NCBI GenBank assembly: GCA_026002815.1
Contig: BPGB01000002.1
Coordinates: forward strand, 1 to 64,000
Reading direction: 5' to 3'
DNA: 64,000 bases
Source: Candidatus Woesearchaeota archaeon
GTDB lineage: Archaea > Nanobdellota > Nanobdellia > Woesearchaeales > UBA9642
Below the pieces are notes generated by a model. The model was given only the letters and a program-made list of their open reading frames with translations. It made no database searches and was not told where the DNA came from. Made by a program: the position numbers and the translations under genes. Below are positions 982 through 41,457 of this stretch, piece by piece (position 1 is the stretch's first letter; the number at the start of each line of letters is the position of its first letter).

Positions 982-1637
982 ATGAAATATAGTAATATTC
1001 CTTTATTTCGCCTTTTAAATCAAAGAATTCGGTTTGGATTAGCAACCCGCCGTACGCAATATTATATTTTTCTGAAAATTCTACATTATTGGAAGACTAT
1101 TCAAAACTTCCTTTTTATACTATTGATGCTCGATATGTGTTGGTTCCTAATATACGTTTTCCACATTTTGTTTTAAATGCAGAATTGAAAAAAGAATATA
1201 AAAAATTAGGATTGATTGCATTTAATCAATTTCAACGCCCCCCCTAAAAATAGAAATATAATTGTAGATTTAACTTTTATGAACAATTAATTGATAAAAG
1301 ATATAAATTTCAACATTACAGGCAACGTGGTGCTTTATTTTTAGATAGAATTATTAATTTTCCTTTGCCAGATAACTATCAAAAAATCTTTATTTATTCT
1401 TTGGATTTATCTAAACCATTTAATAAATTTTTAAATATGAAGGCTTATCATATTCTTTCAAAGATGAAAGATGAAGAATTTAATTTTAATGAAATGTTAA
1501 TGTTTATGATTTCAGGTGAAATGACTTATTATCGAAAACTAATTAAAGAAGGTGAAACAAAATTTCCAAGAGTAGTTCAATTATTTAGATCATTGAAGCC
1601 ACATAAATTACCCGAAGATTTTTTCTATGAAAGATGA
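982..1637 (+). pseudogene. single ORF interrupted by frameshifts (unknown protein); either decayed or affected by homopolymer sequencing errors
   Basis: The frame of the 1365-1637 ORF is open upstream as ...SVWISNPPYAILYFSENSTLLEDYSKLPFYTIDARYVLVPNIRFPHFVLNAELKKEYKKLGLIAFNQFQRPP*. Shifts at TTTCGC (~1008), C7 (~1240) and TTTT (~1283) would restore one continuous protein. Confidence 0.6.
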
Positions 1638-4600
1638 AGAACTAGCAAATAATATTTTAAGTAAAATTCATGGAAAAATTAAAGACAGTAATATTGAAAA
1701 ATTTAAAGTGGCATTAATGGCATTAGCTAAAGAAAAACCAGATTTATTTGAGAAAATTGAATCTGGTGAATTGACTGAAGAAGATGCCATGCAGTTGGCA
1801 TCATTAGCTCTATTAACTCAAAATTTAGGATCAGTCACACAAGCAGAACAGATTATTCAAACAATTCCAAAAGATAAAATTGATAGGGCATTAAAATTAA
1901 TTGATAATAAATATGCAGACGAACTTTTAGTTAAATATCCGGCAAAAGTAGTATCAACAGATATTTTTAGTGAAATATCAAAAACAGATGTATTAGTTGG
2001 AAGATCACCGAAACATTTATTTGAAAAAAGAAAAATTGATTTTGAAACGAATTTAAAAAATGATGCTTTAAATGCCTTTAAAGTATTAGAAACTAAAGAT
2101 ATCCCGATAAAAATAGAGAAACTGGAAATTGAAGATGCTCCAATTGATTTTACGGAGTTAAGAAGATCTGAATATCAAACAATTACAGTTCAAATTAGAA
2201 CGGCTAATGATAAGAAGCAGACAATTAAAATTGATATTCCCAAACTACAGGAAGATGGAACGTTCATCCAAAATGGCGAGAAAAAAATATTATTGAATCA
2301 AATTATTCAATGCCCAATAACATTTCCAAAACCTTACGATTCAAAATTTGAATCATCATTCTCGGCATTTCATATATGGATTAAATTTACAAGTACCCCA
2401 TATTTAGAAATTTATATGGGAAGTTATAAAGGCCCATTACTTCCTTTACTCTTTTATAGTTTTGGATTCTTTAAAACATTAAAACGATATAATATTGATG
2501 CTGAAGTTTTATCTAAACGAGTTAAAATAAATACCGATAAAGAAGTAATTGTTAAGGTAGATAATAATAATTTTATTTATTTTAAAAATATTAATACAGA
2601 TGCTAAACGTTATTTAATTAATTCGTTAATTATGACAAAATTAGAAAAATTAAAATTTGATTCTAATATTGATATTACTCAAAAAAATTTTTGGGCGCTC
2701 GTATTAAATAAATTTACAAACAAAGTAAATACTTCATATATGGTTTCTAATACGCTAGAAAATATTGTTGATCCGGTCGCAAAACAAATTTTAATTAATA
2801 TGAAATTACCATTTGAATTAGAAGATATTATGGAATATATGACACAAAAAGTGTCGATAGGATTTATAATTGATAGAAATGATCTGAAAAATCAACGAAT
2901 CAGAAACTCTGAAGTTATCGTACATTTATTACAAAAAAGAATTCTCGCAGCTTACACCGAATATCAACAGCAAGTGTTAGCTGGTAATAAAGATGCCAAA
3001 TTAAATATCGGGCAAAAGGATTTATTAAGTTCTATTTTAAGCGTCGAAATTGTCCAAAGTATGGAATACGCAAATCCCATTGAAGAGATTGCAACACTAA
3101 CTAGAGTTAACCCGATTGGGGGAAAAATAGGAGGAATTCCTGATAAACGGGCTATTCAAGAAGAGGCTAGAAATGTTCATCCTTCTTATTATGGAAATAT
3201 TGATCCTCTAGATACACCTGAAAATGCTAACGTTGGAATTATTCAACATTTGACTATTGATGCCACAATAGGTGGAGCTAGAGGTCTTTTTCAAATTAAA
3301 AAAATGACTGATCAAGAAGGATTAAATATTTTATCTCCCTCTTCTGCTATGGTCCCATTTATTGAAAAAAATGATGGTGCGCGTGTTATCTTTTCTAATG
3401 CGCAGGCACGTCAGACCGTTCCCTTAAGAGATCCAGAACCTCCATTGGTTCGTTCTGGCTATGAATCAATTTTAGCCGGGGTTCTTTCAGATAATTTTGT
3501 TATCAGGGCTCCGGATGATGGAATAATTCAAAAAATTGATAAAGATCATATTTATTTTATTTCTAAGAAAAAAGAAGAAAAAGTATTTTCAATTGCACCG
3601 AAACATTTAAAATCTGGTTCCGGACGAAACACTTTAAGTGTTTTTCGTCCTACAGTTTCAGAGAAAGATGTAGTTAAAAAAGATCAAATTATTGCCGAAG
3701 GAAGCTGTATGCGAGATGGTGTTATTTCTTTGGGGAGAACGTTACTCGCTGCATTTATGCCATATAAAGGATTTAATTTCGAAGATGGTATTGTAATATC
3801 TTCTTCGGTTGCAGAAAAAAGAAAATTGACTTCATTACATGGTGTGGAAGAACAATTTATTATAGATGAAAATGATAGAATTTTATCAATTGTCAATATT
3901 GGAGAATATGTTCCAAAAGGAAAACCATTAGTTGTAAAATCAATTGGTGTGCTTGATGAATTATTAGGATATTCCTCTGATGAGGATGAAACAATTGAGA
4001 TTATGGGTGGTGACTTAGTTAAAAAATCTCCTGGCGGAAGAGTCGTTGATATTGAAGTTTTTGCAAATACATCTAAATTTTCTAAATTACAAGCTTTGAT
4101 TGATAGAACGAATAAAAAATACGGACGAACTTCACATCAGAAATTTAAAATTGACGGAACTCCATTTAAAGGAGTTGTTATAAAATTTTATATCGAACAA
4201 GATTTTGACATTGATGTTGGGGATAAATTAACAAATCGATATGGCGGAAAAGGGGTAATTGGTCTCATTGAAGATGAAAAGAATATGCCAGTTACGCCGT
4301 GGGGTGAAAAAGTTGAAATTATTTTAAATCCGATTGGTGTTATTTCCCGTATGAATATGGGTCAAATTTATGAATTATATACTGGGCTTATTGCTCGGAT
4401 GTTAGGAAGAAAAATTTTACAAATTAAAAAGAAAGATGAAGTCATTAATTTATTAAAATCGGTTATTTCTCCTATTGATAAAACAGAAAAACAAGTCTAT
4501 ACTGAGTCTATAGTGGCATCCCTAAAAGGGATGAATGAAGAAAGATATAAATTTTTCTTGGAAAGTGTTAAAAAATATGACGGTTTTCCAATTACAGTTC

Positions 4601-5067
4601 CTCCATTTAAAGGGCCAAAATATGACGATATAATAAGAGCTTTAAAAGTTCTTAAATTGGATACTAAATATCACTTATATTTACCAGAATTTAATACTAA
4701 GACGATTAGACCAGTTCCAGTTGGATATATGTATTATTATAAATTAGAACATATTTCAGAATTAAAATTACATGCTAGAAGTACAGGTCCAAAAACGGGA
4801 AAAACAAAACAGCCCACACAAGGAAAACGAAGAGAGGGTGGGCAAAGATTCGGAGAAGGCGATGTTTATACTTTATTATCATATAATGCTAAATATACGT
4901 TGAGTGAATTGATGGGACCATTAAGTGACGATGTGATTACAAAAGAAAAACTTATATCAAATATTATTTTAAATGGGCAGGCCGAATTTGAGCCGCCAAA
5001 AACATCCCCTACAAAAGAATTATTAGAACATTATTTTATATCTCTAATGTTAGAAGGAGAATTTTAG
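1627..5067 (+). CDS. DNA-directed RNA polymerase beta-subunit-like protein (copy 1)
   Basis: RpoB motifs: YYGNIDPLDTPENANVGIIQHL, NFEDGIVIS, GDKLTNRYGGKGVIG, GGQRFGEGDVYTL. Confidence 0.93.
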   Translation: MKDEELANNILSKIHGKIKDSNIEKFKVALMALAKEKPDLFEKIESGELTEEDAMQLASLALLTQNLGSVTQAEQIIQTIPKDKIDRALKLIDNKYADELLVKYPAKVVSTDIFSEISKTDVLVGRSPKHLFEKRKIDFETNLKNDALNAFKVLETKDIPIKIEKLEIEDAPIDFTELRRSEYQTITVQIRTANDKKQTIKIDIPKLQEDGTFIQNGEKKILLNQIIQCPITFPKPYDSKFESSFSAFHIWIKFTSTPYLEIYMGSYKGPLLPLLFYSFGFFKTLKRYNIDAEVLSKRVKINTDKEVIVKVDNNNFIYFKNINTDAKRYLINSLIMTKLEKLKFDSNIDITQKNFWALVLNKFTNKVNTSYMVSNTLENIVDPVAKQILINMKLPFELEDIMEYMTQKVSIGFIIDRNDLKNQRIRNSEVIVHLLQKRILAAYTEYQQQVLAGNKDAKLNIGQKDLLSSILSVEIVQSMEYANPIEEIATLTRVNPIGGKIGGIPDKRAIQEEARNVHPSYYGNIDPLDTPENANVGIIQHLTIDATIGGARGLFQIKKMTDQEGLNILSPSSAMVPFIEKNDGARVIFSNAQARQTVPLRDPEPPLVRSGYESILAGVLSDNFVIRAPDDGIIQKIDKDHIYFISKKKEEKVFSIAPKHLKSGSGRNTLSVFRPTVSEKDVVKKDQIIAEGSCMRDGVISLGRTLLAAFMPYKGFNFEDGIVISSSVAEKRKLTSLHGVEEQFIIDENDRILSIVNIGEYVPKGKPLVVKSIGVLDELLGYSSDEDETIEIMGGDLVKKSPGGRVVDIEVFANTSKFSKLQALIDRTNKKYGRTSHQKFKIDGTPFKGVVIKFYIEQDFDIDVGDKLTNRYGGKGVIGLIEDEKNMPVTPWGEKVEIILNPIGVISRMNMGQIYELYTGLIARMLGRKILQIKKKDEVINLLKSVISPIDKTEKQVYTESIVASLKGMNEERYKFFLESVKKYDGFPITVPPFKGPKYDDIIRALKVLKLDTKYHLYLPEFNTKTIRPVPVGYMYYYKLEHISELKLHARSTGPKTGKTKQPTQGKRREGGQRFGEGDVYTLLSYNAKYTLSELMGPLSDDVITKEKLISNIILNGQAEFEPPKTSPTKELLEHYFISLMLEGEF

Positions 5068-5071
5068 TCTA

Positions 5072-5701: not shown

Positions 5702-5927
5702 AGGATCAATGAAATTTGAATTTAATTCAGATGAATTAGTAACCGTTGATCTTATTCCAGATGGAGTTGTTTTTAATTTTAAAAATAAAGATTTTTATCA
5801 AGTAAATTTTCCATTTTTAAATAATCAAGCTAAAGAAGCTTTGGTGAGATTAAAGAATCTGAATGGAAATCTAGTTGTAGATTTCAATACGCCCGAAACA
5901 CTTGTTAAGATTAATCTTAAAAAGTAA
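5679..5927 (+). CDS. hypothetical small protein
   Basis: AGAAAGGAG Shine-Dalgarno before ATG 5679 (MNKITVIRGSMKFEF...); the track start at 5640 is probably too far upstream. Confidence 0.6.
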   Translation: MNKITVIRGSMKFEFNSDELVTVDLIPDGVVFNFKNKDFYQVNFPFLNNQAKEALVRLKNLNGNLVVDFNTPETLVKINLKK

Positions 5928-5947
5928 AAAAATTAAAAAAAGCATAT

Positions 5948-5975
5948 CTATATATATAACTAAGTGAAGAGAAGG
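5948..5975 (+). promoter_or_regulatory. recurrent intergenic motif CTATATATATAACTAAGTGAAGAG (candidate phage promoter)
   Basis: Near-identical copies at 28094 and 62592, all in intergenic DNA upstream of + genes. Confidence 0.5.
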
Positions 5976-6094
5976 TTTTATTTTTTTTAACTAAAAAAGG
6001 AGGTAAGAATGGATACAAGTTGATTTTCTAAAAATAATACAAAAGGTAAAAGGTGAAGGTATTTATTAAGTTTTTTAAGGAGAAAACCAAAACC

Positions 6095-7657: not shown

Positions 7658-8875
7658 ATGCCGAACAATCAAGAACTTCAATATGTTGATAAATTAAACA
7701 TTGGGGTGACAACAATTAATAGAGCAAAAGAATTAATTAAACGTCACATTAAAAATATTTGTATTTCTTGGGCAAATAATCATATGGTTCAAAAAAATAC
7801 ATTTCATTTAATTGGACCTGCCGGGGTCGGAAAAACACAAATTTGCTTTCAAATTGCAAATGAATTAACTGAAGAACTTAATATTAAGTTTCAGGTAATT
7901 AAACTTCATGCCCCAGTTTTAACAAGGGACGATTTTCTTATTCCTTATCCTGTTTCTGAAAATAAGTTTAAAATGTTACTTTCGGATTTTATTCCAGTTG
8001 ATCCAAAATCATTTGGTATTTTAGTAATCGATGAATTTTCTAGAGCAGATCATTCGCTTCAACAATTGTTTTGGCAAATTCAAAATGAATATTCAATTCA
8101 TACGCACGACATACCACCTGGATGGTTTACTGTTGTAACGGACAACCCAGATGATTCAGAATATTCAATGAATACACTAGAAGATGCAGCAGGTTTGCGT
8201 CGAATGGTTCATTTATATATAGATGTTAGTGCTAAAGAATTTTTAGATCACGCAAAGAAATCGAATTTTCATCCTTTTATTATTGATTTTATACAAAAAT
8301 ATCCATCATACGTTTATGATAAGACTTCTCAAAAAAGAGGGTCTGTTTATGCTAATCCAGGATCATATGAAAAATTATCAAATGAATTATGGGCATATGA
8401 ACACGCATTAAATAATGACCGCAATGCTTTAAGAGATAATATTGAACAAATTGATCAAATTATCTATGGATTATTGAATTTAAATATGGGACAGATTTTT
8501 ATTGAAGTTGTTAAGAATAAAAGAGATGTAATTGATCCTAAAGATATTGTTTTTGAATTTGATAAAGTAAAAAATAAGATTGAATCTTGGGTATTGGAAA
8601 ATAATAATCCTTGTCTCCATGAATTAATTCAATCAGTTATGACATTTTTAATATCCGAGCGGCCCGAAATTACAGATACAATTAGAAATAATTTTACAAA
8701 TTTTATGGTAACATTACCAGAAGATATGGCAGCTATGTTTATTCACCATATGGGAACACTTAATAAAGCGACAGATTCATATAGATATTTAGCGAAATTA
8801 TCACAAGAATGTGCTATTAAAAATGAAAAATATAGGAGTATATTTGTTCGAAATATCCGAGATATGAGTCAATAA
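7658..8875 (+). CDS. AAA+ ATPase, MoxR-like
   Basis: Walker A GPAGVGKTQ; Walker B GILVIDEFSRAD; next to a vWA/metallopeptidase gene. Confidence 0.8.
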   Translation: MPNNQELQYVDKLNIGVTTINRAKELIKRHIKNICISWANNHMVQKNTFHLIGPAGVGKTQICFQIANELTEELNIKFQVIKLHAPVLTRDDFLIPYPVSENKFKMLLSDFIPVDPKSFGILVIDEFSRADHSLQQLFWQIQNEYSIHTHDIPPGWFTVVTDNPDDSEYSMNTLEDAAGLRRMVHLYIDVSAKEFLDHAKKSNFHPFIIDFIQKYPSYVYDKTSQKRGSVYANPGSYEKLSNELWAYEHALNNDRNALRDNIEQIDQIIYGLLNLNMGQIFIEVVKNKRDVIDPKDIVFEFDKVKNKIESWVLENNNPCLHELIQSVMTFLISERPEITDTIRNNFTNFMVTLPEDMAAMFIHHMGTLNKATDSYRYLAKLSQECAIKNEKYRSIFVRNIRDMSQ

Positions 8876-8893
8876 AAGGTTAAAGGAGAAAAA

Positions 8894-9085
8894 ATGATTA
8901 CAAAAAAGAAATTTCGTCTTCGAGTTGATATGGAATTCGAGGCTTTTGATATTGTTCAAGCACGAATAATTGTCAAAGAATATATTAAAAATAAATTTAA
9001 AGATGATCATGATAAATATGTATTTAAGTTACAAGAAATTTTTGAAGATAAATCCCCGAAAGGTGAGATTATTAAATTGGAGTAA
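8894..9085 (+). CDS. hypothetical small protein
   Basis: AAAGGAG SD before ATG; sits between the ATPase and the vWA gene. Confidence 0.5.
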   Translation: MITKKKFRLRVDMEFEAFDIVQARIIVKEYIKNKFKDDHDKYVFKLQEIFEDKSPKGEIIKLE

Positions 9086-9088
9086 AAT

Positions 9089-10489
9089 ATGAGAAAATTA
9101 CTTGGAAAATTAATTCTCAAAAATAATTTTTGGGGGTTTGTTTTTTCAACAATCCCAATTGAAGAAACAGAAGAATTGCCTTATATAGCAGCCGTAGCAA
9201 TTAAAAATAATGATTTGGTTCTTCTATATAATGATCGTTTATTATCTCAATTAAATGTAGACCAAATAATTAAAATTTTAGAACATGAAGGTCTTCATAT
9301 TTTAAATAAACATTTAACTCGATTTATTGATTATATTCCAGATCATATAGATGAAAATACAAAAAGAAAAATAATAAAAAAATTGAATAAAAGTGCAGAT
9401 TTTGCAACAAATTCTATCATAAAAGATATGCCTAAATCATTAAATATTGATGGTGAAGAATATAATCTTTTGTTTCCAGAAGACTATGGCCTCCCACCTT
9501 GTAAAAGCATGGAGTGGTATTATGAAAATGAACAAGAAGATGATGAAGGAAATCATGAGCAAAGTAAATCAAGTGATGACAGATCTCAAAATCAAGAAAG
9601 CTTTTTATCTAGCTTCGGGGGTACTCATGATGTTATGGGGGATGATTGTAAAGATTATGGGCCTGTTTCTAGAAGCAATGGCAATGGCCTTTCGGAAAAT
9701 GGGGAACGACATTTACAAAGCGGGAGTGGAAATACAAAAAAGGAATTAAAAGATATTACTGATATATCACATAAATATTGGAATAATGAGACTCTTGATA
9801 CTACAACTGCGAAACAAATTGAACAAAAGTTAAAAGCTAAAATAGGTTCAAGTTATCGAGAATTTAAAAAAAGAAGGGGTACGTTACCTGGATATTTAGA
9901 AGAAATTATCACAGAATTTATAGAACCTCCGAAACTTCCTTATTATGATATGATTAAGAAAATCATTAAAGGTAATTTATCCGATAAATATAAAAGGAGT
10001 AATACTCGAATTAATAAAAAACGAGTATTTATATTAGATAAACATTTGCCTATTTCACCATATCCGGGAATAGTGCGTGAAAATACATTTAGAGTGGTTG
10101 TTATAGTAGATTCGTCTGGATCTATGTCAAATGATGAAATTCAAGAGTCTTTGAAAAGTGTAAAGCATATATTAAATAACGATAAAAATGTATTTCTATA
10201 TTTGATCAGCATTGACACAAAAATTAATTGGGAGGGGCGAATAAGACGAATTGATGAAATTAACAGAGTAAAATTTAAACGTGGGGGTACAACTCTTTTA
10301 CCTGCATTTGAAAGGGCTAAAGAGTTGCGCCCCCACATTACTTTATGCTTTACAGACGGATATTGCGATGATTTAAACAATTTTAAATATAAATTACCTA
10401 AAAAAATACTGTATATTCTATCGGAAAATGGAACGTCCAAATATATAGACAGGACAGGATGGATTGTGCAAATGAATAAATCATATTAG
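9089..10489 (+). CDS. putative metallopeptidase + vWA-like domain protein (DUF2201-type architecture)
   Basis: HEGLHILNKH zinc-site motif in the N-terminal half; MIDAS-like VVIVDSSGSMSNDEI in the C-terminal half. Confidence 0.75.
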   Translation: MRKLLGKLILKNNFWGFVFSTIPIEETEELPYIAAVAIKNNDLVLLYNDRLLSQLNVDQIIKILEHEGLHILNKHLTRFIDYIPDHIDENTKRKIIKKLNKSADFATNSIIKDMPKSLNIDGEEYNLLFPEDYGLPPCKSMEWYYENEQEDDEGNHEQSKSSDDRSQNQESFLSSFGGTHDVMGDDCKDYGPVSRSNGNGLSENGERHLQSGSGNTKKELKDITDISHKYWNNETLDTTTAKQIEQKLKAKIGSSYREFKKRRGTLPGYLEEIITEFIEPPKLPYYDMIKKIIKGNLSDKYKRSNTRINKKRVFILDKHLPISPYPGIVRENTFRVVVIVDSSGSMSNDEIQESLKSVKHILNNDKNVFLYLISIDTKINWEGRIRRIDEINRVKFKRGGTTLLPAFERAKELRPHITLCFTDGYCDDLNNFKYKLPKKILYILSENGTSKYIDRTGWIVQMNKSY

Positions 10490-11201: not shown

Positions 11202-12953
11202 ATGACCTATAATAAAATTGAAGTTTTATCTGAAAAGGAACACATTAGAAACGCTCCCGCAATGTACATAGGATCAACTAAAACACCAACACATCTAGTG
11301 GAAGAAGTTTTAGATAATGCGTTGGATGAAGTTTTAGCAAAACATGCAAGTACGGTCGCCATTCGAATTAATGGCTCTGAAATTACTATTGTAGATGATG
11401 GAAGAGGAATTCCTATTAATGATGACATTCCTTTAACGATTTGCACGAAATTATTTTCAGGAGGGAAATTTAAAGGAAAAAAGAAAGATTATAAAATTAC
11501 AACAGGCCGACATGGGGTTGGTTTAGTAGCCGTTAATTTTTTATCGACAAAATTTCAAATTGAAATTTATAGAGATAATAAAAGGTATTATGCAGAATTT
11601 AAAAACGGCGAACTTGTTAAAAAAGAATTAAGAGATTTTAATGGAAAAAAGCCATTCTCAACAGGAATTACTTTTTCGCCTGATCCAGAAATATTTGAAA
11701 CTTTAAATGTAGATATTGATCGAATTAATGAAAGATTATTATATGCATCTTTATTTACAAATGGAATGTTTATTTTATTGGTAGATAATGAAAAGAAATT
11801 TATTCAATTAAATAAAGAAGAATTTTTAAAAACACATATGTTTAATGAAAGAGATACAGCAATTACGGAAGTATTTTCTTTAAATTCAAAAGTAAAAGGC
11901 GAATCATTTTCTGTAGATTTTGCTTTTGCGGAAGGAAATATATCTCCGAGAATTATCGGGGGAGTAAATCTATTACCTATACATAATGGTGAACATATTT
12001 TAGCATTTAGAAATGCATATAAATTAGAAATTCTTAAATTTGCAAAACGAAATAAAATAAAATTCTTAGATGAAAATGATATTTTTATTGGATTACGGGC
12101 ATTTGTAAACGTATTATTAGAAGAAGTTGAATTTGGAGGACAAAATAAAGGAGTATTAAGTAATAGAACTGATTATTTTAATAGGTTTAAAATTAATGAA
12201 TATATTAAAACTATCATTGAAGAAAATGAAGAAACATTTAAAAAGATTTTAAAATATCAAAAAGATTATCGAAGTCATTTAGAACATAATAAGAAAATTA
12301 AATCAAATATAAAAAAGGGATCAACTAAATTTACGAAATTAAGAGATTGTTTAAATTTAAATGGAGAGTTATTTATAGTAGAAGGTGATTCAGCGGCAGG
12401 TGGTTTAATTGAATGTAGAGATCCTAAAAAACATGCGGTATTTCCTTTAAAAGGAAAGCCGCCACTTTTTACATCAAAAACAATTTTAAAAAATAATGAA
12501 ATATCAGAATTAATTGAAGCACTTGGTTCTGGAATTGGTAATCAATTTAATATAAATAATTTAAAATATGAAAAAATAATAATCTCAACTGATGCCGATG
12601 CAGATGGTGGACATATCTTTTGTTTAATCACCATGTTTTTCTATAAATATCTTCCTGATATAATTAAAGAAAATAAATTATATTATGTAGTTACACCATT
12701 ATACGCTATTTCAGATGTAAATAAAAAGATATTTATTCCTCTATGGACAAATGAAGAATTAGAAAAAGCTAGAAAAGAAAATAAATCTATTATTAGAATT
12801 AAAGGGTTAGGTGAAATGTCTCCGTGGCAATTAAAACAAGTTTTAATTGATGAACATTCACGGAGATTGATTCCTATCGAGTATTCAGATGATCCAAATA
12901 TTGAAAAACTTTTTATAGATTCACAAACAAAACGAGATCTAATTAATGATTAG
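11202..12953 (+). CDS. type II DNA topoisomerase ATPase (GyrB/ParE-like) subunit
   Basis: RNAPAMYIGS, EVLDNALDEVL, DDGRGIPI, FIVEGDSAAGG, STDADADGGHI. Confidence 0.95.
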   Translation: MTYNKIEVLSEKEHIRNAPAMYIGSTKTPTHLVEEVLDNALDEVLAKHASTVAIRINGSEITIVDDGRGIPINDDIPLTICTKLFSGGKFKGKKKDYKITTGRHGVGLVAVNFLSTKFQIEIYRDNKRYYAEFKNGELVKKELRDFNGKKPFSTGITFSPDPEIFETLNVDIDRINERLLYASLFTNGMFILLVDNEKKFIQLNKEEFLKTHMFNERDTAITEVFSLNSKVKGESFSVDFAFAEGNISPRIIGGVNLLPIHNGEHILAFRNAYKLEILKFAKRNKIKFLDENDIFIGLRAFVNVLLEEVEFGGQNKGVLSNRTDYFNRFKINEYIKTIIEENEETFKKILKYQKDYRSHLEHNKKIKSNIKKGSTKFTKLRDCLNLNGELFIVEGDSAAGGLIECRDPKKHAVFPLKGKPPLFTSKTILKNNEISELIEALGSGIGNQFNINNLKYEKIIISTDADADGGHIFCLITMFFYKYLPDIIKENKLYYVVTPLYAISDVNKKIFIPLWTNEELEKARKENKSIIRIKGLGEMSPWQLKQVLIDEHSRRLIPIEYSDDPNIEKLFIDSQTKRDLIND

Positions 12954-12961
12954 GAGGGAGG

Positions 12962-14269
12962 ATGAAGAAATTAATACCTGTTTTTTATAAAAATTATGGA
13001 AAATATATTAATGCGTTTCGAGCAATTCCATATGTTCGAGACGGTTGTAAACCAGTTGAGCGTAGAGTTTTATTATCAGCATATGAAATTGCCCGAAATA
13101 AGACTATCAAGTCGGCTAGACTTGATGGACATGTAATAGGTCATTATCATCCACATGGAAGTGTATATGGAACAATTGTAAATTTAGTCCATCAAGGATT
13201 TTTAGATGGACAAGGAAATTTTGGAACAAAAATTGGTGTCGAACCTTTAGGTGCAGCCGCATCACGATATACTGAAGTTAAACTATCCGAATTAACGAAA
13301 AAATTAGCATTTAAATATATTGATTATGTCGATTATGAAGAATCGGAACTAGATCCTGAACCGAAATATCTTCCAACAATGATTCCATTCTCATTATTGG
13401 GAGAAACATATACTATTGGTTTGGGGTTTGGTTATAGAACAGTAATTCCTGTATATGAATTAAAAGATTTAATTAGAAGACTTTTATTTCTTTTAAAGAA
13501 AAGAAAAGAAATCGTTATTAAACCAAAATCGCATGGATGTGAAATAATTGAAGAAAAATCAGATATTTATGATTTATTGAAGAAGGGACAAGGAAAAATT
13601 ACATATAAAGGAAAATATAAAACAATCCCATCTAAGTATTTAGTTGAATTATATTCGTGGCCTCCTCATTTAACATTTGAAAACATTTTAAATAAATTAA
13701 ATTTAAGTGATGAAATTGCATATAGAGATATTTCATCATCAGGAAAAACTGTTGTATTATTTGAAATAATTAAAAAAAGAAATAGAGATGATATATTTAA
13801 TAGATTTATTAAAAATTTAGATGAGGCGATCACAGATTCATTTTCTTATGAAATGAATTTTGTTGATGATAATTATAATATTATTCAAATGGGGGTAGAT
13901 GATATTTTATTAATTACATTTGAAAATTATAAAAAAATAATTGAAAAAATGGCTAAAAGTATGATTGATAAATATATCAAAGAATATAATGAATTGGAAT
14001 TATTAATGAAAATTAGACCGTATTTGCGTAATTATATGAAAAATAATTCGATTGAAGAAGTTGATGAAGTGGCAGCATTTATTTCATCGGAATTAAAAAT
14101 TCCGATTGATACCATTTTAAATATTTTAAACAAGTATAAAATTAGTAAACTATTTAAACATAAAGATTTAAAAGAAGTTGAGGACAAAATTAAACATTAT
14201 ACAAATATATTAAATAATATAGATGATACCGCGATTGAAGAATACATGGAGGTTATGGATGGTAGTTAA
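12962..14269 (+). CDS. type II DNA topoisomerase DNA-cleavage (GyrA/ParC-like) subunit, short form
   Basis: RAIPYVRDGCKPVERRVLLSAYE, GHVIGHYHPHGSVYGTIVNL, AAASRYTEVKLS; only 435 aa, no C-terminal beta-pinwheel. Confidence 0.93.
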   Translation: MKKLIPVFYKNYGKYINAFRAIPYVRDGCKPVERRVLLSAYEIARNKTIKSARLDGHVIGHYHPHGSVYGTIVNLVHQGFLDGQGNFGTKIGVEPLGAAASRYTEVKLSELTKKLAFKYIDYVDYEESELDPEPKYLPTMIPFSLLGETYTIGLGFGYRTVIPVYELKDLIRRLLFLLKKRKEIVIKPKSHGCEIIEEKSDIYDLLKKGQGKITYKGKYKTIPSKYLVELYSWPPHLTFENILNKLNLSDEIAYRDISSSGKTVVLFEIIKKRNRDDIFNRFIKNLDEAITDSFSYEMNFVDDNYNIIQMGVDDILLITFENYKKIIEKMAKSMIDKYIKEYNELELLMKIRPYLRNYMKNNSIEEVDEVAAFISSELKIPIDTILNILNKYKISKLFKHKDLKEVEDKIKHYTNILNNIDDTAIEEYMEVMDGS

Positions 14270-28093: not shown

Positions 28094-28121
28094 CTATATA
28101 TATAAATAAATGAATAAGAGG
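28094..28121 (+). promoter_or_regulatory. recurrent intergenic motif CTATATATATAAATAAATGAATAAGAG
   Basis: Second copy of the motif seen at 5948 and 62592. Confidence 0.5.
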
Positions 28122-32531: not shown

Positions 32532-32540
32532 GGAGGTAAA

Positions 32541-33251
32541 ATGTTTAAAGTATATCTGTCAAATGAAATTCCTAAAGAATTCAATGAGAAATATGCGTTT
32601 GTAGTTGGAAGTGATGGAGTTTATGTTTATCGAAAAACAAATTTCTACGAATCGTTGACAAAAAGTAAAAAGAATGAAATTCCAATTTTAAATAAACCAG
32701 ATCAATTTATTTATCTACGAAACAATATGAATTTTCCTATGTATCTAATGAATATTACATATTCATTCTTTGCTGATGTATACGAAAAATATAAGTCAGA
32801 AGCAATTGTATTAATTTACATTGATAATGATCAAAAATTTTATATTGCCCCACCACTTCAAAAAGTGAGTGGGGCACATTTAGATTATAAAAATAATATT
32901 CTACATCCAAATAATATGACATTGTTTGGGACAATTCATTCTCACGGAACGATGTCAGCGTTCCATTCAGGCACAGATCATAAAGATGAAGAATTCTTTG
33001 ATGGTTTACATATTACATTAGGGAAAATTACATCAAATCCTCCCGATATTAGTATCAGTCTGGTGATTGACGGATTCAGAGGAATAATAAAGGAACCCGA
33101 AAGAGTTATTGAAAAATACGGTACTTATCAAAAAGTACCATATCCTAAAGAATGGATGGATCAAGTTAAATATAATGCTCCGCGACAAATTTCAACGCCC
33201 ACTCATTACCAAATTCCAAATCATTTTTATGATTCTTGGAGGTGGTGGTAA
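32541..33251 (+). CDS. JAB1/MPN (JAMM) metalloprotease-like protein
   Basis: GTIHSHGTMSAFHSGTDHKDEE, matching H-x-H-x7-S-x2-D exactly. Confidence 0.85.
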   Translation: MFKVYLSNEIPKEFNEKYAFVVGSDGVYVYRKTNFYESLTKSKKNEIPILNKPDQFIYLRNNMNFPMYLMNITYSFFADVYEKYKSEAIVLIYIDNDQKFYIAPPLQKVSGAHLDYKNNILHPNNMTLFGTIHSHGTMSAFHSGTDHKDEEFFDGLHITLGKITSNPPDISISLVIDGFRGIIKEPERVIEKYGTYQKVPYPKEWMDQVKYNAPRQISTPTHYQIPNHFYDSWRWW

Positions 33252-33947
33252 ATGCGAATTGTTATTGTAGGATTAGGCGGAATTGGAACATTTGTCGTAG
33301 ATTATTTGTGTCGTTTTGCAAATTATTCACCCGCCCCTCCAGAATTTTTATTTATTGATGGTGATTCTTATGAAGAAAAAAATAAAAATCGTCAAACGTT
33401 TGAAGAAATTGAAGGACTAAGTAGTAAAGCAGGTGTAAAACGTGTTGAGCTAATGAAAAAATTTCCCAATTTAAAAATTAATGCAATTAATGAATATTTA
33501 ACTCATGAAAATTTTCATAAATATATTCAAAATGAAGATGTTATCTTTATTTGTGTAGATAATCATAAAACGAGATATTTAATTGCTACTGAGGCAGAAT
33601 CATTTGATAATATTGTGATTATTAATGGAGGTAATGAGTTATATGATGGTAATGTACAATTGTATGTACGGAAAGGAGGTGAAAACTTAACTTGTACATT
33701 GTACGATTACCATCCTGAAATTGGGGAACCGCAAGATAAGCACCCTCTTGAATTATCTTGTCAAGAAAGACAATTAAGTTCCCCCCAATTATTATTTACA
33801 AATATGCTTATAGCTAATGTAATGTTAATTGTATTTTATCAATATATTACAAATGATTTTTCAGAATTTAAAAATTATTTTGAATGGTATCTCGATATTA
33901 GAAATCCTTTAATATTAGATGCAAAAATTAGACAAATTAAGTCATAA
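33252..33947 (+). CDS. E1/ThiF-like adenylyltransferase, PRTRC-ThiF-like
   Basis: MRIVIVGLGGIGTFVVDYLCRF nucleotide-binding loop, FIDGDSYEEKNKNRQTF; ELSCQERQLSSPQLLFTNMLIANVML C-terminal helix. Confidence 0.83.
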   Translation: MRIVIVGLGGIGTFVVDYLCRFANYSPAPPEFLFIDGDSYEEKNKNRQTFEEIEGLSSKAGVKRVELMKKFPNLKINAINEYLTHENFHKYIQNEDVIFICVDNHKTRYLIATEAESFDNIVIINGGNELYDGNVQLYVRKGGENLTCTLYDYHPEIGEPQDKHPLELSCQERQLSSPQLLFTNMLIANVMLIVFYQYITNDFSEFKNYFEWYLDIRNPLILDAKIRQIKS

Positions 33948-34007
33948 AAAGTCAATTTAATTAATAGCGGCCCTACCCATCAACTTAATTTATCACCGGA
34001 GACTAAA

Positions 34008-34481
34008 ATGATCACGTACTCTTTTGACGAATTATGGAGCCTTACTGTTCCTGAACTTTATGATCTGTGCAAAAGTTACGGTATTCCGGGAATGCGTAAA
34101 GCTCGGAAATCCACCATGATCAATGCCATTATGAATTATTATGAATCGAATTCTAATGATGCAAGTGACATTAACAACAATCACAATCAATCAGAAGAAG
34201 AGGAGGATTCAATGCTAAATGGAGTGCGTGCAACGGTAAATGCTATTCGCAATGAAGATAACACGGTAAGCGCGATGGTTCGTGTTTCGTGTGGCGCGAA
34301 CCGTGATACATTTCCAGTTGTCGGAAAGACAATTCGGGATGTTATCACGCTTCTCACCCCAATTTTAAACATTCCTGCTGGGGCTGAAGCGTATGTGAAT
34401 GGACAGTCAGAATCCTATTCATACATTCTCAAAGAAGGTGATACTCTCGAATTTATCCGCCCCGCTGGTTCTAAGGGTTAG
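34008..34481 (+). CDS. SAP/Rho-N-like domain + ubiquitin-like beta-grasp domain protein
   Basis: LTVPELYDLCKSYGIPGMRKARKSTMINAIMNYY; C-term ...AGAEAYVNGQSESYSYILKEGDTLEFIRPAGSKG resembles ThiS/Ubl beta-grasp; lies between two E1-like genes. Confidence 0.65.
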   Translation: MITYSFDELWSLTVPELYDLCKSYGIPGMRKARKSTMINAIMNYYESNSNDASDINNNHNQSEEEEDSMLNGVRATVNAIRNEDNTVSAMVRVSCGANRDTFPVVGKTIRDVITLLTPILNIPAGAEAYVNGQSESYSYILKEGDTLEFIRPAGSKG

Positions 34482-34487
34482 TTTATT

Positions 34488-34525
34488 TATAAAGGGGGGG
34501 ATTCTATCCCCCCCTTTATTTTCTT
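34488..34525 (+). terminator. rho-independent terminator
   Basis: AAAGGGGGGG ATTCTAT CCCCCCCTTT ATTTT. Confidence 0.65.
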
Positions 34526-34553
34526 TATTTTCGTTTTTTTAAACGAGGAATAT

Positions 34554-35396
34554 ATGGAAATAAAACGCTTAACCATCTTAGGGGTGGGAAGCATTGGGTC
34601 AAATACAGCTTTAAAATTTATTGAAAAACAACCTATTGAAGAAATACAAATTTTTGATGGAGATTATATTAAAGAGCATAATTTATATAATACTCCATAT
34701 ACTAGAGATGATGTAGGTAAAAATAAAGCATTAACATTAAAAAAATATATATCTAATAACTATCCAAATATTCGAGTGGAGGCTGAACCTATATTTATCA
34801 ATGATAATAAACATCCTATAAAAAATACAGATTTAATAATTGATACGAGAGATGTTTCAGCATTTTATCGAAAATCAAATAAAATCTTTTTAAATGGTAG
34901 TGACTTATATATAGATGCAAGAAAAATTAAATCTAATCTTCCTAAAAAAATTGTTAATGAAACGCACTATTCTGTTCAATATGATAGAAAAAGTTTAAAT
35001 AATTTTCTAGATGTTTATTTAAATAATTTATCTCAAATTCAAGATAATTTTGTCATTATTGATGATACATTTAAAATTAATAAAATTGAATATTCACAAG
35101 CAACTATTGATTTATTAAAAAGTTCAAAATATAAAAATCAATTTTCATATATTGCATCATCATGTGAATTGGATAAATTTTTAAAACAAAAATTAATAAG
35201 GTATTCTATTTATGTTTTCTATAAAGGTACGATTCAGTATCAAGAAAATATAAAATACTCCGATTTGGAAAAAATAATTACAATTTTAGATAATATAATT
35301 CAGAAAAATTATCAATTTTTTAGAGGGCGCTTAATTACTTTGAAATTACTTCCTGGGGGAGATTTAATGCTTTATCCAGAAACATACGCCTGTTAA
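34554..35396 (+). CDS. second E1/ThiF-like Rossmann protein
   Basis: MEIKRLTILGVGSIGSNTALKFIEKQPIEEIQIFDGDYIKEHNLYNTPY. Confidence 0.75.
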   Translation: MEIKRLTILGVGSIGSNTALKFIEKQPIEEIQIFDGDYIKEHNLYNTPYTRDDVGKNKALTLKKYISNNYPNIRVEAEPIFINDNKHPIKNTDLIIDTRDVSAFYRKSNKIFLNGSDLYIDARKIKSNLPKKIVNETHYSVQYDRKSLNNFLDVYLNNLSQIQDNFVIIDDTFKINKIEYSQATIDLLKSSKYKNQFSYIASSCELDKFLKQKLIRYSIYVFYKGTIQYQENIKYSDLEKIITILDNIIQKNYQFFRGRLITLKLLPGGDLMLYPETYAC

Positions 35397-35410: not shown

Positions 35411-35890
35411 ATGTTGGTTCCTATTTTCTCCAAGTTTGAACCAACATTGTTAATCCTTCCAGATTTCTTAGGCTATTCTCATATGTTTCGAGTCAATTCA
35501 AAAATCAAACATAAAAAAGTCGCCATTGTTCATATTAAAGATCATAAGGTAAAACATATCTTTTATTCTGGTCAATATCCTACTAAATTAAATCCAATTG
35601 AAGTATGCCCTTCATATGAAATTAAAGAGGCTATTATTTATAAAAATAATTTTTCAGATATAATTGCTTATATAAAACAAGAATTAAAAATTTGGAATTT
35701 AAATGCAGTTGAGAGTCGTGTAAAAATTAGAAATTTATGTAGCATGCTTGACATTGTTCATAAAATAGATTACCCTGTCACAAGAAAGACTAAAAATTTA
35801 ACAGACGAAGAAAAATTTTACTTTTTGTACAATCCGTTAGGGAATCTAAAGGAGGATCATTCCATTGTTCCCACAACTAATCAATATTGA
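35411..35890 (+). CDS. hypothetical protein
   Basis: AAGGAGG SD; open frame. Confidence 0.6.
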   Translation: MLVPIFSKFEPTLLILPDFLGYSHMFRVNSKIKHKKVAIVHIKDHKVKHIFYSGQYPTKLNPIEVCPSYEIKEAIIYKNNFSDIIAYIKQELKIWNLNAVESRVKIRNLCSMLDIVHKIDYPVTRKTKNLTDEEKFYFLYNPLGNLKEDHSIVPTTNQY

Positions 35891-38498
35891 TGAATACGCA
35901 CAGTCATTACCAGAAATATCTACTCATAAAATTTATTTAAAATCAAACTATCATCCAGAAGGGTTATTCTCAGAACAGATTTTCGGACCAAAAAAAAATT
36001 ATACATGCCAGTGTGGTAAATATTATGGTCCTTCAAAAGAAGGTGAAGTTTGTTCTATTTGCGGAGTGGAAATTTTACATTCAAGTGTACGGAGGGAAAG
36101 GTTTGCGAAAATCTCGCTCCCTTTCCCTATTATAAATCCTATTTTTATAGATCTATTAACAGAATTGAATTTAAGCAAGAAGATTATTGACCAAATTATT
36201 ATTGGTAAACAATCAGTTTATTTAACTAAAAATGAAGTTATTATTAGTGATTCTAAAATTGATAATGCTGCCGAATATACAGGCGTTGATGCAATTAGAT
36301 TATTAATAGAAAATGAAATTTTAAATACGGACTCTTCATTCATAGCAGAACATTTGGACAAACTTTTAATTCATAATGTAATTGTTATTCCTCCTGATCT
36401 CAGACCTATAATGGAAGGAAAGGTAAGTGTATTAGATGAATTCAATAGATATTATACAACTATAATTATGCGTCGTAATAGTATCGTAGCGTCAAATTTG
36501 AACGTTAATAATAATAAAAAATTATTCGATTGGTACTTTAAGCAAATTCAAAAATCGGTTAATGAATTGTATAACCATATACTTCAAAAATTATCAAAAA
36601 AAGAGGGTCTTGTACGACATAATATGCTTGGTCGGAGAATCGATTTCTCTGGTCGGGCTGTTATTGTACCAGACCCAACATTAAAGTTAAATGAATGTAA
36701 AATTTCATATTTAATTTTAATGGAACTTTTTAAAATTCATTTAGCTAAGCATTTAATTTATAAAGGGAAATCAAAATTTATTAATGAAGCTATTCAATAT
36801 ATCAATGATTGTATTGAATATAAACGATCAGATCTTTATAACGATTTATGTGAGATAGTAGTCGATCAATATGCTTTCTTAAATAGACAACCATCATTAC
36901 ATCGGCCAAGTTTATCTATTTTTAAAATTATTCCAACTAAAGATGAAGTTATTAAAATTCATCCTCTTATTTGTCCCCCATATAATGCCGACTTTGATGG
37001 GGACCAAATGGCAATTTATATTTCATTGGAATCTCAAAAAGAATTAAAAAGAAAAGTAATTACCAAAATGCTTTCATCACCAGCGAATGGAAGTTTGATT
37101 ACTACACCTAATCAAGATATTGTGTTAGGAATTTTTAATTTGACTAAAACCGAAAGTGGATTTGAGATTTTTAAAAATCTATTTCCATCGGATTTTGAAA
37201 TAGAATATGATGGACCTATAACTAAAAAGAAATTAATTAAGTTACTAAATGATGTAAAAGAAAAATATGACGAAGAAATTACAAAAGACGTCATCGATAA
37301 TGTTAAAGAATTAGGATTTATTAGTTCCTCTTATGGTAATACTTTATCATTGCATGGATTTTACAACCCCAAGATTAAAGAAATTCAAAATTATATTTTT
37401 AAAGATACTGATTCTGAAGAACAATTAAGACGTATTTCGTCCAATGATATTCTTGAAAAAATCAAAGAAGGGTTTGCGTATAAAGATTTGATTGAATCAG
37501 GTGCGCGTGGAAGTTGGGATCAAGCAAAACAGTTAATTCTTTCACGGGGGTTCGTATCAAATTTCAAAGGTGAGATTTTGAACAAGCCCATCAAACATTC
37601 ATTGTTTGATGGTTTAACTAAAGAAGAATTTTTCTTGTCAACATATGGATCTCGTAAAGGTCTTTTAGATGTAGCATTAAATACTTCAAATTCTGGATAT
37701 TTATCTAGAAAGTTAATATTTTTAATGATTAATCTTGAATTAGATCCAAATATAAAAGATTGCGGAACTCAAGATAAATTAGAAATTTATGTTGAAAATG
37801 AAAAGAAAGCGGAACTTTTGATAGGGAAATGGTATAATTTAGATCGTATTAATAATAATTTATCTTTAATTACAAAAGAAAATTACAAAGATTTAGTAGG
37901 AAAAAATATATTTATTCGTAGTCCGATTTTTTGTAAAAATGAAAAAATCTGTTTGACTTGTTATGGAGAATTTTATAAATACCTTAATTCTAGATTTATT
38001 GGTGTTATTGCAGCCCAATCGTTAGGGGAAGTCAACACTCAACTTGTATTAAGGACGTTCCATACATCTGGAACGGCTGTGATAAGAGATGTTCAATTTA
38101 AACAACAAGATATTGTAAATGACCTATCTTTTACATCATATTTATTACATCATTATAATGATATTGAAGAAAAATGCCCTGAACATTTTGTAAAAACTTT
38201 ATTTGATATTTATAATAATCATAGTTCAATTAATCATGTTCATTTTGAATGTATAGTTTCACAATTAATGTGGCATAAGGGAATGAAATGGAGATTAATT
38301 CCAAATAGAAAAGAATTACCTTATGAATTTGTTTCAATTAAAAGTGTACCATCGTTAGAATCTTGGATACTCGGTTTGGGATTTGAAAATCCCAAGCGCC
38401 ATCTTTTAGATGGAATTCGGTATGGTAAGGCTAGATATAAAGGAATATTTGACAGAATATTAAGAGGAGAGCCATTGGAGGAATCTGTCAGTGAATAA
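35865..38498 (+). CDS. DNA-directed RNA polymerase beta'-subunit-like protein
   Basis: Zinc ribbon CQCGKYYGPSKEGEVCSICG, LGRRIDFSGRAVIVPDP, catalytic NADFDGDQM, GVIAAQSLGEVNTQLVLRTFHTSG; TTG start with AAAGGAGG SD. Confidence 0.94.
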   Translation: MFPQLINIDEYAQSLPEISTHKIYLKSNYHPEGLFSEQIFGPKKNYTCQCGKYYGPSKEGEVCSICGVEILHSSVRRERFAKISLPFPIINPIFIDLLTELNLSKKIIDQIIIGKQSVYLTKNEVIISDSKIDNAAEYTGVDAIRLLIENEILNTDSSFIAEHLDKLLIHNVIVIPPDLRPIMEGKVSVLDEFNRYYTTIIMRRNSIVASNLNVNNNKKLFDWYFKQIQKSVNELYNHILQKLSKKEGLVRHNMLGRRIDFSGRAVIVPDPTLKLNECKISYLILMELFKIHLAKHLIYKGKSKFINEAIQYINDCIEYKRSDLYNDLCEIVVDQYAFLNRQPSLHRPSLSIFKIIPTKDEVIKIHPLICPPYNADFDGDQMAIYISLESQKELKRKVITKMLSSPANGSLITTPNQDIVLGIFNLTKTESGFEIFKNLFPSDFEIEYDGPITKKKLIKLLNDVKEKYDEEITKDVIDNVKELGFISSSYGNTLSLHGFYNPKIKEIQNYIFKDTDSEEQLRRISSNDILEKIKEGFAYKDLIESGARGSWDQAKQLILSRGFVSNFKGEILNKPIKHSLFDGLTKEEFFLSTYGSRKGLLDVALNTSNSGYLSRKLIFLMINLELDPNIKDCGTQDKLEIYVENEKKAELLIGKWYNLDRINNNLSLITKENYKDLVGKNIFIRSPIFCKNEKICLTCYGEFYKYLNSRFIGVIAAQSLGEVNTQLVLRTFHTSGTAVIRDVQFKQQDIVNDLSFTSYLLHHYNDIEEKCPEHFVKTLFDIYNNHSSINHVHFECIVSQLMWHKGMKWRLIPNRKELPYEFVSIKSVPSLESWILGLGFENPKRHLLDGIRYGKARYKGIFDRILRGEPLEESVSE

Positions 38499-41457
38499 CA
38501 TTATTGAATTCAGACAAAAAGAATATCAAGAAATTGAGAATAAAATACGGGAATGTATAAAAGTTATTGAAGAAGAAACAGATTTCGTTTTAGAAAAATT
38601 TAATATACTATTTTCACCAGAAAAAAATTCAATTGACAAAACATTAAAAAATAAAATTACTTTGGTATTTAAAAGTACAAAAAAGAATTCAAAACCAATT
38701 GATTTAAGCATGTACATACCAATATATGATGATGATCAATTTATTATCAACGGATTTGAAAAGATTCCATATTTTCAGATTTTAGATATTCCATTTCGTA
38801 TTACGGAAGAATTTATTACAATTAAATTAAGTATGGCATCTGTCTCTTTTGTACCGCATAAAGAAACAGATGGATTTAAATTTTATATAAATTTTCTAGG
38901 TAAAAAATGTCCAGCATCATTAGTATTCTTTTATTTCCTAAAAGATAAAGTTTTTGAATATCAATCAAATGATAATGGACATCCATTTTATAATGAATTT
39001 ATTGAAGAATTACATACAATTGGAATGGAATCATCAGAAATTGATGATTCTGATTTAATTTATGAAATAGGAAAATATATTTCGGATGTTGATATTTACA
39101 ATAAAGGAGATGATTTTTTATATGCAATAAAAGTTGCACCTAAGATTGATATTTTACATACAAGATTTTTCCATACAGAAAATAAAAATTTAATTGAAGA
39201 ATTTTTATATATTTTACAAAATAATATTTCGTATGATGATTTAGATTTAAGAAATAAATGGATTAGATCAGAATCATTTACAGCTTTGATTATTTCAAAA
39301 TTATTTGAATTTATGATACATAATAGACGACATAAACCAAGGTTTAAAATTAATAAACAATTTTTATTATCTCATTGTAATCAAAATCCAACAATTCAAT
39401 ATGATTTTTCAATAAATCCAATTGATTATTATACTAAACTTTTAAGAACTAGTTTAATTGGACCCAATTCATTTAATAGAGATAATATACCTCCAAAATT
39501 TAGAGATTTACATGAAAGTTTTTATGGAAGAATAGATCCTGTTGATACACCAGACAGAGAAAATTGCGGTGTAATTCAAAGTTTAATACCATCTGTTAAT
39601 GTTGATGAGAATGGAAGATTTACGGATATTATTTCAGATGATATTGTAACAATTCCATTGTTAACACCATTTATTGAGCATGACGATCAAACGCGGTTAC
39701 AAATGGCCGCGTCGCAAATGAGACAGGCAATTCCATTAGAAGAATTTGATATTCCCTATATATGTACTCCTGCAAATAAAGATTTTTTAACAGATTCTAA
39801 AACAGTTATTCGCGCTAAAGATGATGGAGAAGTTATATATAATGATCTAATAAATTACTTATTAGTTGCATATAAGAATGGTGAAATTGATATTATTAGA
39901 ATTGGATTTGTTAATAAACAGAATAATTTAAATATTTATTATCCTAATTATGAAATTTTAGAGACGAAAAAATTCAATAAAGGTGATATATTAGCATATT
40001 CTCATTATTATAATTATGTTTTATCATTTGGAAAAAATTTATTAACAGGAATTACAATTAATGGATATAATTATGAAGATGGAATTGTGATATCTGAGTC
40101 TGCGGCTAAAAAATTAACATCATTACATGTTGAAGAATATGAACTATATGTAAATCCCGATCAAGTATTATTATTACTTGATAACGGAAAACCTTTATAT
40201 GAGGAATTAGAAGTTATCGAGCAAGGGAAAAAATTATTTAAATTAAAAGATATCCCGACAAAGTACTCACAAGATAGCTCGAAAATTTTATACGAAGAAT
40301 TTGAAGATACGGCAACTAAAACTTATTTAGTTTCAAATTTACAAACATTTCCAAATGAATGGAACACTAATATTCGAGGATATAAAGAATTTATCGAGCA
40401 GCGTATTGAAAAAGAAAATAGAAGAAATAAAGAGATACGTTCTTTGCTTGAACAAGCATATGGAAAATCTGAAAAATATAGATATTTATGTGAAAAATAT
40501 AACCTTAATATTTTAGATTTTATAGGCCGTATTAAATATAAAGATGAACGTATAAATGGTGTATTGTTTAAATTTAATTTAATATATAAAGATTATATAA
40601 GTTTAGGAGATAAATTGGCAAATCGTCATGGAGGAAAAGGTGTAATTACTCAGATTCTTCCTGATGAAAAAATGCCTATTACAGATAAAGGTGAACGTAT
40701 TGAAATTTTAATAAATCCATTAGGAATTATTTCTCGAATGAATTTAGGTCAATTATTTGAATTACATCTCGGTTTAGCATTTTATCAATTAAAAGTAAAT
40801 GCTAAGAAAATGCTTGAGGATAATGTCCCATCTTTTAAAATTAAAGAGTATATTTTTAATTTTATCGAATTAATTGATTCGACACATGATAAAAAGATGG
40901 TACATAATTTTAATAAATTGTTAGAACATCGTAATATTGATGAAAACTTTATAAATAATTTATTCATTTTAGTATTTCCATTCGAATCACCTAAATATGA
41001 AAATGTCGCTAAAGCATTGGAATATGTAAATAGAGATTTTGAAGAAAAAATTTATGATCCATTTTTAGATAAACAATATAATATTGCTTTAGGCTATATG
41101 TATATTATGAAGTTAAATCATATTGCAAAAGAAAAGATTGCAGCAAGATCAATAGGGCCATATTCAAAACGAACTCTACAACCGTTAGGCGGCAAACGAA
41201 ACAAAGGAGGACAGCGATTCGGTGAAATGGAAACTGCATGTTTAATCGCGTTAGATATGCCGGAAACATTGCAAGAATTTTTCTTGAGATCAGATTCTTT
41301 AGAATATGTCAAGAACCTAATAAATGAAACTCAAGTAACGACAAAGATTAAAACTAAACCCGAAATTGTTCATTTATTTGATTCATACTTAAAAGTCATT
41401 GGGGTTGAAATTAAAAACCACAAAACTTCAACCAAGGAGTCGAAAGATGAATCTTAA
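38491..41457 (+). CDS. DNA-directed RNA polymerase beta-subunit-like protein (copy 2)
   Basis: FYGRIDPVDTPDRENCGVIQSL, NYEDGIVISESAA, GDKLANRHGGKGVIT, GGKRNKGGQRFGEMETACL; GTG start. Confidence 0.94.
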   Translation: MNNIIEFRQKEYQEIENKIRECIKVIEEETDFVLEKFNILFSPEKNSIDKTLKNKITLVFKSTKKNSKPIDLSMYIPIYDDDQFIINGFEKIPYFQILDIPFRITEEFITIKLSMASVSFVPHKETDGFKFYINFLGKKCPASLVFFYFLKDKVFEYQSNDNGHPFYNEFIEELHTIGMESSEIDDSDLIYEIGKYISDVDIYNKGDDFLYAIKVAPKIDILHTRFFHTENKNLIEEFLYILQNNISYDDLDLRNKWIRSESFTALIISKLFEFMIHNRRHKPRFKINKQFLLSHCNQNPTIQYDFSINPIDYYTKLLRTSLIGPNSFNRDNIPPKFRDLHESFYGRIDPVDTPDRENCGVIQSLIPSVNVDENGRFTDIISDDIVTIPLLTPFIEHDDQTRLQMAASQMRQAIPLEEFDIPYICTPANKDFLTDSKTVIRAKDDGEVIYNDLINYLLVAYKNGEIDIIRIGFVNKQNNLNIYYPNYEILETKKFNKGDILAYSHYYNYVLSFGKNLLTGITINGYNYEDGIVISESAAKKLTSLHVEEYELYVNPDQVLLLLDNGKPLYEELEVIEQGKKLFKLKDIPTKYSQDSSKILYEEFEDTATKTYLVSNLQTFPNEWNTNIRGYKEFIEQRIEKENRRNKEIRSLLEQAYGKSEKYRYLCEKYNLNILDFIGRIKYKDERINGVLFKFNLIYKDYISLGDKLANRHGGKGVITQILPDEKMPITDKGERIEILINPLGIISRMNLGQLFELHLGLAFYQLKVNAKKMLEDNVPSFKIKEYIFNFIELIDSTHDKKMVHNFNKLLEHRNIDENFINNLFILVFPFESPKYENVAKALEYVNRDFEEKIYDPFLDKQYNIALGYMYIMKLNHIAKEKIAARSIGPYSKRTLQPLGGKRNKGGQRFGEMETACLIALDMPETLQEFFLRSDSLEYVKNLINETQVTTKIKTKPEIVHLFDSYLKVIGVEIKNHKTSTKESKDES

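Follow-up and report, generated by a model that had tools for sequence, protein, structure and literature searches.

Jumbo phages of the phiKZ/AR9 type encode two sets of beta' and beta RNA polymerase (RNAP) subunits, a virion and a non-virion enzyme, in 4-5 scattered pieces, with no alpha or sigma homologue (PMC7598289, PMC5312081). One of the two enzymes is carried in the particle, and infection does not depend on the host RNAP. In AR9 the virion RNAP uses promoters of the form AAATATATATTAT-(6N)-G and the non-virion RNAP uses AACA-(6N)-TA/G (PMC5312081). Reviews from 2020 and 2026 call the origin of the two enzymes in jumbo phages open, with duplication and a double acquisition as the alternatives, and the gene splits also go without explanation (PMC7598289, PMC13282480). 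Unsplit beta and beta' genes, apart from cellular ones, have been described in the multi-subunit-RNAP-encoding Caudovirales (mReC; Weinheimer and Aylward 2020, PMC7481178), on contigs of >200 kb and in IMG/VR; one beta and one beta' were reported per contig, and a second set, phiKZ and AR9 were not discussed. The hydrothermal-mat virus rep_vMAG_21 has a pair of RNAP loci, of which one is near mReC, and the beta of its RNAP2 was described as a fragment non-homologous to RNAP1 and left uninterpreted (PMC10159854). Phages of the YerA41 / Carin-5 type have a single multisubunit RNAP, with beta' adjoining an unsplit beta; only one set was seen in the stretches read, and the beta' of YerA41 is split. 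Both the mReC lineage and the dual RNAPs of phiKZ-like phages are already known from publications. In a literature search that took in few subscription journals and preprints, no paper was found that links mReC to the virion/non-virion pair or that describes two unsplit virion/non-virion orthologues in one phage.

The DNA analysed here (the window) comprises 64,000 nt at the left end of C2 (BPGB01000002.1), a contig of 211,225 bp without terminal overlap, in a metagenomic bin of 26 contigs and 1.7 Mb that carries an archaeal RpoA' on contig C7 (GCA_026002815.1). Because the window starts at the left end of C2, there is no assembled sequence to the left of base 1. As in the phiKZ/AR9 type, the lineage of C2 has two beta'/beta sets per phage (27 plus five related contigs, C2 itself lacking one beta' at its break), orthologous beta sets, a virion-type beta' C-terminal piece (seen in relatives), and both an AT-rich early-type and an AACA-containing late-type motif; no alpha (PF01000) or sigma (PF04542) domain was matched on C2. 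Unlike that type, beta and beta' are single genes here and beta' adjoins beta, and the promoter motifs are similar, not identical.

C2 belongs to a jumbo myovirus with tail sheath and baseplate genes, a T4-type terminase, a T4-type portal with an intein, a Gp23-type capsid protein, a family-B DNA polymerase, a DnaB-like helicase and a ribonucleotide reductase with an intein. Both capsid and terminase families used for mReC (PMC7481178) occur on C2, namely PF07068 (E 2e-32) and PF03237 (E 2e-7; terminase large subunit, 45895-47541, plus strand, in phage context). The genome probably belongs to the mReC lineage. The inteins of the portal protein and the ribonucleotide reductase (129724-132726 and 198991-202158 of C2) contain HNH domains. 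Other phage genes in the window include a topoisomerase pair (GyrB/ParE-like and GyrA/ParC-like, 11202-14269), a phage-encoded TROVE/Ro60-like protein with a vWA domain (16867-18423), and an AAA ATPase gene and, directly behind it, one for a metallopeptidase/VWA-like protein (DUF2201; 7658-10489), a pair that relatives keep too.

Two intact RpoB-like genes and one RpoC-like gene were found in the window, all on the plus strand and each unsplit. The first RpoB-like frame, beta2 (1627-5067, 1146 aa), was identified by Pfam Rpb2 domains, beta trees and profile comparison, as was the second, beta1 (38491-41457, 988 aa). Pfam Rpb2 domains 3, 6 and 7 match both betas (domain 6 with E 1e-47 and 4e-44), which share 30% identity across 731 aa (E 6e-69). 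The RpoC-like gene, beta'1 (35865-38498, 877 aa), matches Pfam Rpb1 domains 1, 2, 3 and 5 and was further placed by PHROG and profile affinities. The catalytic landmarks are present, GDKLTNRYGGKGV / GDKLANRHGGKGV and GGQRFGE in the betas and NADFDGDQM in beta'1. The initial annotation had reported two landmark-bearing betas, a single beta' and unsplit subunits, and had chosen phiKZ-like virion/non-virion RNAPs as the comparison, all of which was borne out. Its beta2 coordinates describe the open frame correctly and fall short of the gene, which continues upstream as an N-terminal extension of ~200 residues (982-1626, plus strand, start near 982). This extension was recognised with the N-termini of relatives by tblastn (E 4e-38 and 3e-39, the former match spanning 1050-1619); in C2 the frame breaks about four times, in relatives it is intact.

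The single beta' had been taken to mean that a second one lies outside the window or that the two betas share one. Searches of the 1.7-Mb assembly with the window beta' (P0003), a relative's beta'2 and PF00623 turned up no second viral beta', neither on the rest of C2 nor on another contig of the bin; the only other match was the archaeal RpoA' on C7. An IMG/VR search with the window beta' yielded 170 relatives, 80 of which were kept, and in 80/80 a beta of the beta1 type follows beta'. Relatives found with beta2, a set enlarged by profile searches, have a second, different, full-length beta' (beta'2, ~1000 aa) directly 5' of the beta2 homologue. In all 27 related viral contigs in which both sets were mapped, which include near-copies and are hence not all independent, beta'2 precedes beta2 and shares its strand, at a distance of -96 to +2617 bp; the distance is 4.6 kb in one further contig. 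Both beta' types also occur on five more contigs, and five fragments, each of <=110 kb and uninformative on this point, showed beta'1 only. The beta'1-beta1 pair follows beta2 by 16-43 kb in relatives and by 30.8 kb in the window. Among the top "phage" matches of beta and beta', many are contigs from bacteria that had been catalogued as phages, AFYI01000006 at least being bacterial; such records (e.g. AFYI01000006, OR844998, OR846602) hold ordinary bacterial rpoB/rpoC.

Since relatives place beta'2 between -0.1 and +4.6 kb upstream of beta2, its expected position is before base 1, off the left end of C2. The left end of C2 (1-981, plus strand) holds small ORFs at 3-281, 285-650 and 705-854, for which, as gap markers, no homologue was found in relatives. 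At the right end (204-210 kb), o245, o247, o248, o249 and o251-o255 have homologues that lie upstream of beta'2 in relatives, in the same order, while homologues of o005-o013 from the left end lie downstream of beta2. The two ends of C2 are thus the two flanks of beta'2 in relatives, which indicates that the genome is permuted and that C2 was opened at beta'2; in one of the 27 contigs, of 312 kb, the gene order runs across the contig ends. Frameshift-broken genes are found at both ends of C2, at the left the beta2 N-terminal extension, and at the right o251/o252 and o253/o254, each pair of which looks like one gene of the relatives cut in two. On the simplest reading of these sequences, beta'2 would have been lost where the assembly broke, errors on either side of the break having gone uncorrected, and its presence in the C2 genome is predicted from relatives. 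A second beta' outside the window is accordingly given strong support by synteny, whereas one beta' common to two betas was rejected on the same grounds. The initial annotation had also held that a second beta' adjacent to the first beta copy would make this an ordinary two-RNAP arrangement; synteny upholds the two RNAPs, and "ordinary" does not fit, both enzymes being unsplit and one orthologous to the virion, the other to the non-virion RNAP.

That orthology was seen in phylogenies of the betas. In these trees beta2 groups with the virion beta of AR9, phiR1-37, LPJP1 and phiKZ, and beta1 with their non-virion beta. With all rows included, support in the careful tree was 81/88 for beta2 with virion and 96/97 for beta1 with non-virion subunits, and a quick tree gave the same grouping; when YerA41/Carin-5 and the pair of very long phiKZ rows were left out, support rose to 98/98 and 98/96. 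Relatives of the betas fall into clades that exclude the bacterial rows used, mReC and phiKZ-like rows come together with a support of 79/87, and the betas of YerA41 and Carin-5 branch outside both mReC types.

In five of six profile comparisons the scores crossed in the way expected of orthologues; the sixth, with the C piece of the AR9 virion beta', was a tie. The virion beta profile scored 537 with beta2 vs 345 with beta1, and the non-virion beta profile 464 with beta1 vs 357 with beta2. For beta', the phiKZ virion profile scored 155 with beta'2 vs 86 with beta'1, and the phiKZ non-virion profile 146 with beta'1 vs 115 with beta'2. Among phiKZ-type subunit PHROG families, identified by scanning phiKZ's own subunits, P0001 matched best with the family of gp178 (virion) and P0002 with phrog_3295, a non-virion beta C family as judged from its match to an AR9-type piece.

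A further likeness to the virion enzyme was found at the C-terminus of beta'2, as tested in relatives. In SPN3US the fifth subunit of the virion RNAP, gp244, is a beta' C-terminal piece, and when gp244 is missing none of the virion RNAP subunits is packaged (PMC5694885). In beta'2, the 200 residues at the C-terminus (780-980) match phrog_2926, the family of phiKZ gp176, with E 9e-4 within the fused beta'2; an ORF that stands apart in L112 matches with 1.6e-6, and gp176 itself gives 339 bits. The PHROG profile was required, a comparison of gp176 alone with the beta'2 tail by hhalign not being significant. phiKZ gp176 is a head protein similar in size to SPN3US gp244, and from size and role the two would correspond to each other. 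Just before this tail, at residue 774-782, beta'2 is split in about eight distinct contigs (L108, L110, L112, L113, L115, L116, L144/L146 and L191), and phiKZ gp80 matches beta'2 up to the corresponding position. The subunits are unsplit in most relatives; two distant members have beta'2 divided further. Intact and divided forms do not sort into separate parts of the tree, so that this junction was probably broken or rejoined more than once. Other interruptions concern L080 (G002:112867-117033), where a large insertion at about residue 752 leaves the reading frame intact, and L149 (5213-9914), where beta'2 is broken at the NADFDGD active site. Inteins were considered as the cause of the interruptions in L191 and L149, and Pfam names none there, nor any other insert domain in L149.

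Enriched intergenic words of C2 fell into two promoter-like motif classes. The early class, [CT]TATATATAAAT..A[AG]TGA, has ~13 sites on C2, all on the plus strand and most of them 40-230 bp 5' of small-gene operons; CTATATATATAA occurs seven times on C2 vs 0.37 expected from simulations. Within the window, early-type sites are located 105 bp before o007 (5948-5961), 42 bp before o027 (24961-24974, a weaker site), 87 bp before o030 (28094-28107) and 123 bp before o062 (62592-62605), all on the plus strand. The motif is clade-wide, with 19 intergenic matches in 109 loci of relatives vs 0.4 expected, all on the plus strand, which is that of the RNAP genes. The late class, GTGAGAACAAA, has eight exact copies on C2 vs 0.12 expected, and its sites precede the capsid, portal-cluster, terminase and tail operons. 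In the window it lies at 44631-44641 (plus strand) before o046 and the terminase gene, a site also present in the closest relative (L015:12951), and twice before o060 (61987-61997 and 62013-62023, minus strand). The late motif contains AACA, with T[AG] at the AR9 spacing in about half of the sites when GAGAAACAAA variants are counted; a simple pattern gave no clear signal for it in distant relatives. An AR9 early-promoter matrix showed no excess on C2 and did not match C2's own early sites, and only a resemblance of the early motif to that of AR9, not identity, is therefore claimed.

We consider it likely that C2 is the permuted genome of a jumbo myovirus with two complete, unsplit beta'-beta RNAPs, of which beta2, with beta'2 in the gap, is orthologous to the virion enzyme and beta'1-beta1 to the non-virion enzyme, the pair predating the separation of mReC and phiKZ-like phages. 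By analogy with the phiKZ-like enzymes, beta'2-beta2 would be assembled, packed in the particle and injected with the DNA, where it would read the AT-rich TATATATA..TGA motif and turn on early operons; beta'1-beta1 would then be made during infection and read the structural operons from GTGAGAACAAA. What the sequences show directly is which genes are present and how they are ordered, the damaged ends of C2, the orthology of the betas, the profile affinities, the tail of beta'2 and the enrichment of the two motif classes. We infer packaging, the pairing of enzymes with motifs and the timing, as well as the place of beta'2 in the genome of C2.

It is very unlikely that the phage truly lost beta'2, leaving two enzymes that share beta'1 as one catalytic beta'. 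Such a loss would agree with the 1.7-Mb assembly lacking a second beta' and with the small ORFs that fill the ~980 bp upstream of the beta2 gene, but spacers of at least 1 kb between beta'2 and beta2 are seen in relatives too, every related contig that covers the place has beta'2, and it is at this very point that C2 breaks off, with errors at either end. The betas moreover fall into two clades that separated long ago, and each of these has been inherited together with a beta' of its own. Another reading attributes the two sets to a duplication inside the mReC lineage, neither being a specific orthologue and the phiKZ-like affinities being long-branch effects. With the long phiKZ rows and YerA41/Carin-5 in the data, a single beta1+beta2 clade was not rejected by the AU test (p 0.069; one clade of virion+non-virion, p 0.036), a beta' tree with the phiKZ/AR9 pieces, which are too divergent and fragmentary, gave no resolution, and for one relative's beta2 (P0005) the non-virion family phrog_3295 outscores the virion family. 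On the reduced rows, in contrast, one beta1+beta2 clade was rejected (p 0.0035), as was one virion+non-virion clade (p 0.01), p values somewhat weakened by the rows having been dropped after the first AU test was seen. The crossing profile scores for beta and for phiKZ beta', together with the virion-type tail on beta'2, likewise speak against such a duplication, which we regard as unlikely.

It is similarly improbable that the two RNAPs have other roles, for example with beta2-beta'2 unpackaged and early genes read by the host enzyme. The literature yielded no virion proteomics for mReC phages, and the pairing of motifs with enzymes draws solely on the AR9 analogy. On the other side, members of the same clade or family, phiKZ gp178, gp149, gp180, gp80 and gp176 and phiR1-37 g099, are annotated as structural, the SPN3US counterparts were found in virions (PMC5694885), and a conserved early-type motif near that of AR9 stands before small-gene operons.

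If, as we prefer, C2 carried both a virion-type and a non-virion-type RNAP, then, one set being virion-orthologous and the other non-virion, the pair existed before mReC and phiKZ-like phages separated. We regard the presence of both enzymes in a common ancestor, drawn from the beta trees, as the most interesting point. A widespread lineage in which the two enzymes stay unsplit, each orthologous to one of the split ones, places the pair before most splits, and the extensive splitting in phiKZ-like phages is best explained as having followed the separation from mReC. One acquisition and a later duplication is compatible with the trees, and unsplit orthologues make duplication versus acquisition testable by ordinary trees. 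The enzymes of this lineage, at two genes apiece and with candidate promoters for both, should also be easier to express and assay than forms of 4-5 polypeptides.

With respect to the host, the archaeal bin is weak evidence for an archaeon. A sigma-70 domain on contig C10 (11070-11258) occurs together with the archaeal RpoA' on C7, so that the bin looks mixed, and no Cas1 was found in the bin. Infection of the archaeon of its bin, by a tailed archaeal virus injecting its own bacterial-type RNAP, appears quite unlikely; if true, the genome would be transcribed by two bacterial-type enzymes inside a cell with archaeal machinery. Immediately 5' of beta'1, genes for a JAB-domain protein, an E1-like ThiF protein, a Rho_N-domain protein and a second ThiF protein are clustered at 32541-35396, and the cluster holds the same position in 61-64 of the 80 relatives. 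These genes may constitute a ubiquitin-like conjugation cassette beside the non-virion RNAP.
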